From NCBI RefSeq assembly GCF_014205835.1, contig NZ_JACHCQ010000002.1, positions 124,001 through 188,000 on the forward strand: 64,000 nt of DNA. The letters are read 5' to 3'. The notes below the pieces were generated by a model that saw only the letters and a list, made by a program, of their open reading frames with translations, searched no databases and had not been told where the DNA came from. The stretch comes from Pedobacter sp. AK013. GTDB lineage: Bacteria; Bacteroidota; Bacteroidia; Sphingobacteriales; Sphingobacteriaceae. This document shows positions 26,220-49,303 of this stretch, piece by piece. The stretch's first letter is position 1. Each line of letters starts with the position of its first letter. A program made the translations under genes and the position numbers.

Positions 26220-27134
26220 ATGGATTCAAAAATGATAGGCAATAAAATTGCCGGAGCAAGAAAAAAAATAAATATGTCTCAGGCAGTATTAGCCGGACAT
26301 GTATTTGTAAGTCCGCAGGCCGTTGGAAAATGGGAACGGGGAGAATCAATGCCAGATATTATTACCCTGAACCAACTCACTAAGATTCTGAACGTTGATC
26401 TTAACTATTTTTCAGAAAACCTATCTTCTCTAAATGCCCTGAATAAAGTTGTACAGAAAACATCAGAAGTAAAGAGTTTAACAGATTCGCTACAGCCACA
26501 ACTGTTGACCAATTTCAGCGGAAACGATCTTGCCAAGACAGATTTTGCAGGTGTTATTGCACATAATTTAAAATTCAATGGGAGTAATTTACATGGTTCA
26601 GATTTTAGTGGAGCTGACTTAACTGGTAGTACGTTTTTGGGTAGTGATGTAAGAGAAGCTATTTTTAAGGGCGCAAACCTTACTGATTGCAGCCTATCGG
26701 CAAGTGATCTTACTGCTTCTAATTTTGATCAGAGCATTTTTGTACGAACAAAGTTCTATGCTTCAGCGCTGGATGGGGCAAAAATTAGTAATACCAAACT
26801 CACTGATGTAAAACTAAGCAAGACCGATTTGAGAAAAACAGTTTTTGAAAACTGCGTGTTTGTGGGAGTAGATTTTGATTATTCCGATCTGCGTGGACTT
26901 AGTTTGGATGGCCAGACTTTTATAGGCGTGCTCTTTCATAATGCCGCCCTTAACGAAACTACATTCAAAGGGGCAACACTTAAAAATGTATCTTTCCGTT
27001 CTACTTTTGCCCTCACCAACAAATATTACAGAGCCATTAAAACGATTTGCTTTGAAGGAGCGGCAATGGATAAGTTAACCTATGCTTCGCTTAAAGGTTT
27101 AGGTGCCGATCTTTCAAAAGTTATTCTTTTATAA
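26220..27134 (+). CDS. XRE helix-turn-helix fused to a pentapeptide-repeat domain
   Basis: Protein of 304 residues. Residues 5-62 are a Cro/C1-type HTH (KIAGARKKINMSQAVLAGHVFVSPQAVGKWERGES, then LNQLTKIL). After a linker, about residues 98-262 form a right-handed quadrilateral helix of pentapeptide repeats with the A(D/N)Lxx pattern, such as SDFSGADLTGSTF and AIFKGANLTDCSL. Repeat frames stay regular except for drift after residue 190. Pentapeptide helices in Qnr and MfpA mimic DNA and bind gyrase; here the domain could be for oligomerisation, ligand sensing or DNA mimicry. It stands alone with its own promoter. Targets are unknown. Confidence 0.85.
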   Translation: MDSKMIGNKIAGARKKINMSQAVLAGHVFVSPQAVGKWERGESMPDIITLNQLTKILNVDLNYFSENLSSLNALNKVVQKTSEVKSLTDSLQPQLLTNFSGNDLAKTDFAGVIAHNLKFNGSNLHGSDFSGADLTGSTFLGSDVREAIFKGANLTDCSLSASDLTASNFDQSIFVRTKFYASALDGAKISNTKLTDVKLSKTDLRKTVFENCVFVGVDFDYSDLRGLSLDGQTFIGVLFHNAALNETTFKGATLKNVSFRSTFALTNKYYRAIKTICFEGAAMDKLTYASLKGLGADLSKVILL

Positions 27135-27358
27135 TAAGATCAAAAGAAAAACAGAAGTACTGAAGAACAAGCTAATTCGTCATTTGTGGGAATTTTGGTT
27201 GCCTATAATAACGCAAGCCTTACTTTATAGGGGCGTTGGGGGTGACTTGTGCGATGATATATATAATTTAATTAATAATTAACAGATTGTTTTGAATACA
27301 ATCCAGGCAATATTGAGCATGGGCCCGAGCATTAAACCTTGCACTAGAAAGGACACTG

Positions 27359-28114
27359 CTATTCTAAAAAATCAAATATGAATTTATTGTATTCATCCCG
27401 CATTGGCAACTCGAAATCAGTGTAAAGAACCCTTTTATCAGCAGATACATTTTCACCTGTTTTGGGATTAAATCCTTCTTTTTTTATACTTCTCCAATAA
27501 ATGCCTATTCCTCTTTTTTGCCAGGCAGGAAGGTTGTTGAAATTGATGCCATATTGAAAAAGTAATTCGTTTTTGGCTGCAGTACTCATTCCTTCAATTT
27601 TAGAAGAAGCTTGATTCCTGCTATGATTATCCTTTCTCAACTGCCAGTAGCAATGTGCATTTAAGGCATTTCTGTGTGCATCTTCGTTCCGCCATCTAAA
27701 ATAATCCTCAACTAGTCTTTTGTTTGGTAGTTCAGAAATACGGCAGTCAAATGCACCTACGTCTCCTAAAATGGAAGAAAATTTAGCACTTGCTTCACCA
27801 GCCAGTACGGAAATATATTTTCTTACTTTTCGTCCAAAAAGATTTTCATTAGGGTGAAATAGCAACGATATTTCATCACTTTGTGTATAGCCGTAAATGA
27901 TATTAAAACCGCAATTCATCAGATGTTTTACAGTTTCAATCATCAGATTCCGAAATTTTTCATCGAAAGGTGTTTCAAACTGATGTATTTCTTTGGTAAG
28001 TCTGGTAAAACCCCGGCCATCAATTCTGGCAACCATGTACATCTCAGGTAAAATACAATAATCTTGAGCGGTTTCATAAACCCTCATCTTAGCATCTAAA
28101 TCATCAAATTTCAT
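27359..28114 (-). CDS. Thg1-like 3'-5' RNA polymerase (tRNA-His guanylyltransferase family)
   Basis: Template-directed 3'-5' nucleotide-adding enzyme of the Thg1/TLP family, 251 residues. The polymerase-like palm has the metal ligand D32 in ARIDGRGFTRLT and the second carboxylates in YTQSDEISLLF (D80-E81). FGRKVRKYISVLAGEASAKFS and the RNxxNAHCYW segment in the middle also fit the family. Bacterial tRNA-His genes normally encode the extra 5' G, so bacterial members are thought to repair 5'-truncated tRNAs. The start overlaps the stop of the upstream kinase gene by 11 bp, so the two are translated together. An RNA-repair role with the kinase is inference. Confidence 0.9.
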   Translation of the reverse strand: MKFDDLDAKMRVYETAQDYCILPEMYMVARIDGRGFTRLTKEIHQFETPFDEKFRNLMIETVKHLMNCGFNIIYGYTQSDEISLLFHPNENLFGRKVRKYISVLAGEASAKFSSILGDVGAFDCRISELPNKRLVEDYFRWRNEDAHRNALNAHCYWQLRKDNHSRNQASSKIEGMSTAAKNELLFQYGINFNNLPAWQKRGIGIYWRSIKKEGFNPKTGENVSADKRVLYTDFELPMRDEYNKFIFDFLE

Positions 28115-28550
28115 CTGACCATGGTTTTATAATGAATGAGTTATTCTCAGCCGCCACATAATATAGTTCGTCGAAACCCTCATGAATAGAAGGGAGGACC
28201 AACTTTTTAAAAGTTCCCCTTATACCAATTTCTGGGATTTTTTCTTTGCCCGAACGTTGATTATTACGGTCGACAGCATCATTTAATTTCGACTGAAAAT
28301 AATATCCGGTCACTTTGAATTTGTTTGCCTTGGCAATGATTATGTACTTTGCCCTTTCTTCTAAAGAAGGGTTCGTATTATCCACTACAAAAGGCTGAGC
28401 GGTGAGGATACAGGTTTCAATAAATCTGAATTCCTTATTTCTCGTATTTAATAAATCTAAGGAAATATGTACATGCGTTTTAAAAAACTTCTCTTTAAAA
28501 AAGGTAGTTTTTCCAGTTGCCTGAATGCCACAAAATATGATTGCTTCCAT
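28104..28550 (-). CDS. P-loop polynucleotide kinase (T4 Pnkp kinase-domain type)
   Basis: Single-domain kinase of 148 residues. The start is set at MEAIIFCGIQATGKTT because the frame upstream runs through a palindrome and into the tRNA-Ser gene. The Walker A loop is GIQATGKT (residues 8-15). HISLDLLNTRNKE provides the catalytic Asp region, PFVVDNTNPSLEERAKYI is typical of 5'-OH polynucleotide kinases, and AVDRNNQRSGKEKIP and LPSIHEGFDELYYV match the lid and C-terminal blocks. There is no phosphatase or ligase domain. It overlaps the Thg1-like gene by 11 bp. It would phosphorylate 5'-OH RNA ends; a small-molecule kinase role is the alternative. Confidence 0.82.
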   Translation of the reverse strand: MEAIIFCGIQATGKTTFFKEKFFKTHVHISLDLLNTRNKEFRFIETCILTAQPFVVDNTNPSLEERAKYIIIAKANKFKVTGYYFQSKLNDAVDRNNQRSGKEKIPEIGIRGTFKKLVLPSIHEGFDELYYVAAENNSFIIKPWSDEI

Positions 28551-28578
28551 CTTCCTAAAGATTCGGATTTTATAGATA

Positions 28579-28618
28579 CAAAAAAAGGAAGAATTAAGCT
28601 TAATTCTTCCTTTTTTTG
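28579..28618. terminator. 40-bp perfect palindrome, bidirectional terminator
   Basis: Perfect inverted repeat centred on AAGCTT, with 20 nt per arm including GGAAGAATTAAG and runs of A at one end and T at the other. Read from either strand it gives a strong stem followed by a T tract. It lies 3 bp after the tRNA-Ser 3' end and 28 bp before the kinase ATG on the same strand, so it either ends the tRNA transcript or forms a 5' leader structure of the kinase mRNA. Confidence 0.8.
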
Positions 28619-28621
28619 ATG

Positions 28622-28706
28622 CGGAAAGCGAGGGATTCGAACCCCCGGACCTGTTACAGTCAACAGTTTTCAAGACTGCCGCATTCGACCACTCTGCCAG
28701 CTTTCC
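28622..28706 (-). tRNA. tRNA-Ser (anticodon UGA)
   Basis: An 85-nt class II tRNA on the minus strand. The acceptor stem pairs GGAAAGC with GCTTTCC and is followed by discriminator G, as expected for serine tRNAs. The T-loop is GGTTCGAATCC, the anticodon loop is CTTGAAA between GCAGT and ACTGT arms, giving UGA for UCA codons, and a long variable arm is present. The 3' CCA is not encoded. Confidence 0.95.
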
Positions 28707-49005: not shown

Positions 49006-49013
49006 CAGTTCTA

Positions 49014-49122
49014 ATTTATATCTCCAAATAACACCATGTTATCCGGTCAGGAATTGGCACCTTCTCTTTCTGAGGGTTGCCAGTGGGTCATCGAGCCAGT
49101 CTCTCGCCACTTCTTTATAAAT
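49014..49122 (-). promoter_or_regulatory. SAM-I (S-box) riboswitch upstream of metY-metX-hom
   Basis: On the minus strand P1 is ATTTATA/TATAAAT (49116-49122 with 49014-49020). Inside are AAGAAGTGGCGAGAGACTGG, the CTGGCAACC segment of P2/P3, GAAGGTGCCAATTCC of P3/P4 and a final GGATAACATGGTGTTATTTGG stretch. These are the conserved positions of the SAM-I aptamer in order. SAM binding would stabilise P1 and reduce expression of the methionine operon. Its 3' P1 strand almost touches the start of the leader ORF. Confidence 0.93.
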
Positions 49123-49303
49123 CAACCTGTGAAGATTGACTTTTATTTAGCTTTCTGCCAAATAATATTTCAAATGTCTGAATTAAATTTTAATTGACAA
49201 AATAAAATTTCGAATTTAATATAACATGCTGAAAATGAGTGATGTTTTTTTATATCGGTATGGCAAACTAAAACTTTTAATATAAAATTAACGCTTAAAA
49301 TTC

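Follow-up and report, generated by a model that had tools for sequence, protein, structure and literature searches.

Introduction

The closest described counterpart of the locus treated here is a bacterial operon predicted by Anantharaman, Iyer and Aravind (2010, PMC2904730), in which a Thg1 family gene stands beside a gene for a P-loop kinase of the polynucleotide kinase (PNK) family. The parts of that paper concerned with the operon propose a role in RNA repair, with the kinase as the supplier of the 5'-phosphate, and report the company of RNA ligase and MACRO domain genes. We describe a gene pair of this kind, a kinase and a Thg1-like protein (TLP), in a 64,000-nt stretch of Pedobacter sp. 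AK013 (NZ_JACHCQ010000002.1, positions 124,001 to 188,000, forward strand), hereafter the window. The kinase-TLP partnership was already predicted in 2010 (PMC2904730) and the idea of a hand-over between the two enzymes is not new; the pair at this locus is a further case. The present account differs in some of its subjects, in that the main text of PMC2904730 leaves Hen1 unmentioned and its section 6 does not speak of location at a tRNA gene, of RtcB or of RlaP.

Bacterial TLPs repair 5'-truncated tRNAs in vitro, according to the relevant parts of PMC3701042. There and in PMC6471195 the cellular role of these proteins is described as open, because the tRNA-His of many such organisms already has a gene-encoded G-1. 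The main text of PMC6471195 contains no occurrence of kinase, operon or neighborhood; PMC7824862 treats Thg1 and RlaP in phage RNA repair. A kinase-TLP pair of compact, overlapping genes in Bacteroidota, which some close relatives have and others lack, offers a direct test of the role of bacterial TLPs: the material would be the two proteins, both small, together with a defined 5'-OH truncated tRNA and with relatives that lack the pair by nature. Burroughs and Aravind, in Nucleic Acids Research (NAR) in 2016 (gkw722), cited in PMC7824862, probably describe related repair operons.

The kinase-TLP pair of the window

The pair follows a tRNA-Ser(UGA) gene, and all of the features concerned lie on the minus strand:

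27359..28114, minus strand: TLP, predicted 3'-5' RNA polymerase, 251 amino acids, ATG start
28104..28550, minus strand: P-loop kinase, predicted PNK family, 148 amino acids, conserved ATG at 28550, stop at 28104
28104..28114, minus strand: overlap of kinase stop and TLP start, 11 bp, ATGAAATTTGA on the minus strand, from the coordinates of the open reading frames (ORFs)
28579..28618, minus strand: hairpin between tRNA and kinase start, 18 bp, A/T-rich ends, -22.4 kcal/mol, z -5.55
28621..28706, minus strand: tRNA-Ser(UGA), ARAGORN and Rfam RF00005 (55.8 bits)

Taken mechanically, the kinase ORF extends to a TTG at 28673, inside the tRNA; we place its start at the ATG at 28550 because relatives start there. 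A first-pass annotation of this DNA had claimed an 11-bp overlap of the two frames with tRNA-Ser(UGA) directly upstream, and both claims are borne out, the first at 28104-28114 and the second by ARAGORN and Rfam. Translation of the kinase and the TLP is probably coupled. The first-pass annotation had also remarked that ligase and phosphatase are missing, which holds in the window for the kinds sought: phmmer searches with ten references (two Rnl types, HD-AAA_33, Hen1, Pnkp, three RlaP, NIF phosphatase and RtcB) found no repair gene in the 64 kb other than the pair. PADLOC gave no match.

The kinase looks like a 5'-OH polynucleotide kinase, judging from its sequence and predicted structure. 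It matches the Pfam AAA_33 (PF13671) at 35.1 bits, and its P-loop (G8-K14), D32 and R99 are conserved in 53 or 54 of 54 rows, D32 aligning with the Asp of the VNRD stretch of mouse PNKP; we take D32 to be the general-base Asp and R99 the lid Arg. Polynucleotide kinases come first by sequence, by Foldseek and by Z, and among the matches listed the top 14 structural rows are polynucleotide kinases (mammalian PNKP and Clostridium thermocellum Pnkp) plus two fungal kinases. PNK is also its closest fold, and on these rankings the earlier label of Pnkp-type kinase stands, as a predicted activity. The protein comprises the kinase part only: the model for bifunctional PNK/3'-phosphatase (TIGR01663) scores 38.2 bits against a cut-off of 502.8, so that at 148 amino acids it is not an enzyme of that kind. 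In one relative (G051; L007/L115/L145) the Walker-A glycine 13 of the kinase is changed to arginine and the TLP frame is open, reflecting either a decaying kinase or a sequencing error.

The TLP is likely a backwards-working (3'-to-5') RNA polymerase, as predicted from its sequence. It carries Thg1 (PF04446, 115.4 bits, cut-off 29.2) and Thg1C (PF14413, 61.6 bits, cut-off 26.3) domains and matches phrog_4717 at 149 bits. Its AlphaFold2 (AF2) model has a pLDDT of 92.9, and the best Protein Data Bank match is the TLP 5axk (TMq 0.86, 29% identical), of a series in which 5axm and 5axn contain tRNA-Phe. Residues R30, D32, D80, E81, K96, R98 and K99 are invariant in all 60 homologue rows (54 distinct); D32, D80 and E81 are presumably metal ligands. 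At the position of HINNLYN in human Thg1, the motif of tRNA-His-specific eukaryotic Thg1, the alignment has HRNALNA. The protein shares family, fold, catalytic acidic residues and the Thg1C domain with 5axk and with BtTLP as described in PMC3701042, but differs from them in being partnered by a kinase, with an identity of 29% to 5axk and an activity that is predicted.

The tRNA-His of this genome encodes G-1 (the upstream base is G, the acceptor stem is 7 bp, and C73 is opposite G-1), and the TLP is therefore not needed for G-1; moreover, only 9 of 119 genus genomes have a TLP, which is therefore not needed for tRNA-His in the genus.

Phage TLPs are distant (<60% identity) among the matches listed (40 of 117 records), and no match to this kinase was found in phages. 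Three of the 117 phage TLP neighbourhoods contained no annotated kinase or RNA ligase, the genes there being mostly hypothetical, and a single-sequence query of viral_contigs returned no relatives.

Conservation of the pair

We collected 60 loci, 51 from a similarity search of genome contigs and nine from searches of the own genome and genus; 54 are distinct, six genomes having entered twice. At 54 of the 60 (48 of the 54 distinct) a kinase gene adjoins the TLP start, and the two overlap by 11 bp in 47 loci (41 distinct) and by 4 bp in seven; the loci with no kinase there are L035, L039, L040, L045, L053 and L058. Of the 51 similarity-selected loci, 45 have the kinase beside the TLP and in the same orientation. 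Because a similarity search favours close relatives, we added phylum samples searched with the Thg1 family model, which detected the family in 5 genomes among 392 from Bacteroidota, in 21 among 294 from Planctomycetota and in 11, with 12 genes, among 292 from Cyanobacteriota. The kinase stands beside 28 of these 38 TLP genes: 4/5 in Bacteroidota, where the fourth positive case is the window itself, 15/21 in Planctomycetota and 9/12 in Cyanobacteriota. Three centre genomes (G000, G507, G508) had been chosen knowing that the pair was present, and without them the count is 25 of 35. Some calls are qualified by the locus itself: a contig border lies upstream of the TLP in L212, the kinase is in two frames in L197, the kinase match is weak in L209 (32 bits), and the gene of L229 was not recognised by the TLP query. 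In L227 kinase and TLP do not overlap and are 15 bp apart.

The first-pass annotation had asked whether the two families co-occur as neighbours, with chance adjacency as the objection. They are conserved neighbours in several phyla, and with the kinase at the TLP start in 48 of 54 distinct loci the adjacency goes beyond chance. Adjacent same-strand genes for Thg1 and a PNK-family kinase in distant lineages are also what marks the operon of PMC2904730, as characterised there. A mirror-tree comparison of kinase and TLP gave r 0.81 over 46 loci, consistent with joint inheritance but no more because species relatedness was uncontrolled. The pair may be transferred as a unit. On an Embleya plasmid, kinase and TLP matches adjoin (H43, H60) in a stretch that carries no annotation.

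Gene turnover beside tRNA-Ser(UGA)

Two further features bear on the setting of the pair (no strand is assigned to either):

27124..28613: segment missing from the empty site of relative G040 (BLASTN of the window against L150), with 472 bp of other DNA instead
26220-27134: helix-turn-helix protein carrying pentapeptide repeats, on the far side of the pair; some relatives have a match at this locus, and the stretch of others has none

In relatives, BrkB (YihY family) followed by tRNA-Ser(UGA) is a conserved landmark, and the downstream side of the tRNA is variable. Among 30 BrkB loci, the best matches in 60 genus genomes, 27 have the tRNA, about 100 bp beyond BrkB in 26. The kinase comes directly after it in four, and in G008 and G033 the pair is at the same locus with other DNA between. 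G003, with a BrkB 98% identical, is without the pair, and G040 offers a clean empty site: 472 bp after its tRNA comes the block with the pentapeptide gene that in the window stands beyond the pair. Presence/absence at this locus, proposed earlier as a check, is thus confirmed by the empty site in G040 and the absence in G003. Since relatives differ in whether they have the pair, the flank of this tRNA is a site where genes come and go.

Across 85 distinct TLP loci, tRNAs within the first kilobase numbered ten upstream and none downstream; counted from the true kinase starts, the tRNA loci are L010, L011, L012, L013, L021, L032, L036, L040 and L049, several of the upstream-tRNA loci being the same Pedobacter site. 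The suggestion that the tRNA gene serves as an insertion site for mobile genes fares unevenly: presence and absence next to the tRNA favour it, but the window contains no repeated tRNA end that might be an attachment site (last 20, 25, 30 or 40 bases, 2 to 5 mismatches allowed). Inspection by eye of the ORFs of 12-36 kb, most of them without a hidden Markov model (HMM) scan, showed no integrase. Elsewhere, the pairs of L047 and L049 have integrases nearby, and that of L050 a resolvase. Short tRNA-Ser-like ends before the kinase in Mucilaginibacter (L014/L019) were seen by eye only, went unreported at up to 5 mismatches and were not used.

The hairpin between tRNA and kinase is likely either the terminator of the tRNA or a leader of the pair; it was missed by the terminator scan. 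By eye, similar hairpins precede the kinase in relatives, including L014 and L003/L015 (one genome), which have no adjacent tRNA. In those cases too the hairpin seems to travel with the pair, perhaps as a terminator, attenuator or leader.

RNA-repair genes near other pairs

Some pairs in other phyla keep company with RNA-repair genes, counted here as relatives of ligase, Hen1, Pnkp, HD-AAA_33 or RtcB (within about 8 kb in the phylum samples, in the retrieved stretch in the similarity set). The fullest array is in Planctomycetaceae (L054/L207, one genome), in the order kinase, TLP, RNA ligase, HD+AAA_33 protein, an unknown gene, Hen1 and Pnkp. NIF phosphatase, ligase, HD+AAA_33 and Hen1 stand farther along in L198 and L194, and ligase and HD+AAA_33 adjoin the pair in L200; together with L047 and L054/L207, these are the loci with Rnl and HD-AAA_33 near the pair. 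Hen1 and Pnkp flank the pair on either side in the Cyanobacteriota L037/L220 (one genome), L222 and L223, and are both also near the pairs of L054/L207 and L198. A Bacteroidota locus (L024) has Pnkp on the opposite strand, and in L045 Hen1 adjoins a TLP without kinase. RlaP genes occur near the TLP in L047, L048 and L051 (two RlaP genes, a DRB0094-type ligase and pieces of NIF phosphatase), and on plasmids of Deinococcus and Thiodictyon; the order on the Deinococcus taeanensis plasmid is kinase, TLP, two small genes, Hen1, RlaP, RlaP. L216 has a weak RlaP match only (85 bits).

Most pairs, including that of the window, stand alone, since company was found at 8 of 27 fetched kinase-positive loci of the phylum samples (6 of 25 without two centres) and at 7 of 45 of the similarity set. 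The kinase-negative loci gave 1 of 6 in the similarity set and 1 of 10 in the phylum samples, the latter being L218 (102-2122), in which the TLP and RtcB genes overlap by one base and the kinase is absent. Hen1 lies near 4 of 35 non-centre TLP genes (L194, L198, L222, L223), well above random placement because a 16-kb stretch is only about 0.3% of a 6-Mb genome, on an informal scale in which related genomes are not independent. The earlier description as a minimal two-enzyme module is therefore right for the window, where the pair is alone, but not for the part of the pairs in other phyla that ligases or Hen1/Pnkp accompany, and the genome itself has further repair genes, RtcB-RlaP-RlaP-Band7, at a separate locus.

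Compared with the bacterial Pnkp/Hen1 repair system (PMC4411300), the likeness is that its genes lie near the pair in some Cyanobacteriota and Planctomycetota. The difference is that Hen1 and Pnkp are absent from the window by phmmer, where there is no such cassette, and that Pnkp combines kinase, phosphatase and ligase domains of its own. A literature search joining any two of Thg1, Hen1 and Pnkp listed no paper that mentions Thg1; we do not claim the Hen1/Pnkp company as unpublished.

Two loci touch on defence genes. On the Thiodictyon plasmid (L235, NZ_CP020371, 8016-16738) the TLP overlaps an RlaP gene a few kb from annotated BREX-2 genes. In L040 (5001-10750) tRNA-Ser and tRNA-Pro precede a TLP whose gene overlaps hsdM; the latter belongs to a type I restriction operon made up of hsdM, ORF6N, hsdS, an unscanned gene and hsdR. 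A tie of TLPs with phage defence is thinkable from these single cases, both without a kinase beside the TLP.

Proposed role and alternatives

We consider it probable that the pair serves RNA 5'-end repair. RNA left with a 5'-OH by a ribonuclease would be converted with ATP to 5'-phosphate RNA by the kinase; the TLP would adenylylate this phosphate with ATP, and then add the missing nucleotides 3'-to-5', its template probably being the opposite strand of a tRNA acceptor stem. The activities of both enzymes are predicted from their sequences, and our best guess for the substrate is a 5'-truncated tRNA; acceptor stems fit because bacterial TLPs repair such tRNAs in vitro, as reported in PMC3701042.

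The genome also has an RtcB-RlaP-RlaP-Band7 run with a divergent WYL regulator (L097 7778-14252; contig C9 of G000), inside which lies a weak tRNA-like match (32.4 bits). It resembles the RtcB-RlaP loci, and RlaP is near some TLPs elsewhere, but in this genome the run is unlinked to the pair. The pair would act on fragments without their 5' piece, and the direct rejoining of broken halves would fall to the RtcB locus. RtcB is not known to accept the 5'-phosphate that the kinase would make, so the two routes would be alternatives.

More tentatively, the pair may be a mobile plug-in of a modular RNA-repair network. It would restore the lost 5' strands of tRNAs that defence or toxin ribonucleases have cut, and be gained and lost at tRNA genes, on plasmids and within defence islands (BREX, type I restriction); its companions, the Hen1/Pnkp, Rnl/HD-Pnk or RtcB/RlaP systems, would see to the 3' side and the rejoining. 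We regard this wider picture as possible but doubtful.

Among the alternatives to this repair reading, the best survivor, unlikely in our view, is that the TLP acts mainly as an activator, making 5'-adenylylated (AppRNA) ends from the kinase product for a ligase to join, and adds few nucleotides or none. In its favour are the ligase genes close to some pairs and RtcB directly after the TLP in L218; RtcB is not known to use AppRNA, however, and no PF09414 RNA ligase scores above the cut-off of 27 bits in the genome (two weak matches, 24.7 and 22.4 bits). The idea has a precedent as an alternative put forward by Anantharaman et al. in their passages on the operon (PMC2904730), but TLPs do add nucleotides in vitro in the experiments of PMC3701042.

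We think it improbable that the pair corrects encoded or mis-processed tRNA 5' ends, rather than damage. TLP-type editing is known in some mitochondria, and an odd tRNA-Cys(GCA) gene (L106) has a mismatched 1:72 pair; yet the acceptor stem is fully paired, wobble allowed, in 46 of 50 tRNA rows, and the pair is absent from most genus relatives. Two tRNA-Met copies differ by the 1:72 mismatch only, which is usual for initiator tRNAs, leaving L106 and L111, a weak tRNA-Met-like match. In addition to the tRNA-Cys(GCA) gene of L099 the genome thus has two more tRNA-Cys(GCA)-like genes, L106 and L108.

A kinase acting on a small molecule or on seryl-tRNA, paired with the TLP for an unrelated reason, could draw on the PSTK model (31.1 bits), on a fold resembling those of PSTK, zeta toxin and sugar kinases, and on the adjoining tRNA-Ser. 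Polynucleotide kinases nonetheless rank first in all three comparisons, and only at some Bacteroidota loci was tRNA-Ser found close to a pair or a TLP. On these grounds we reject a seryl-tRNA kinase identity and hold this whole explanation to be equally improbable. Finally, G-1 addition or a backup for tRNA-His, with the kinase merely keeping tRNA 5' ends phosphorylated, has the family name and the annotation as tRNA-His guanylyltransferase in its favour, but is likewise improbable against the encoded G-1, the rarity of the gene in the genus and the Hen1/Pnkp/Rnl company at part of the pairs.

A promoter scan gave 5 matches against 5.6 in shuffles. Elsewhere in the window, a SAM (S-adenosylmethionine) riboswitch lies at 49013-49123 on the minus strand (74.7 bits).
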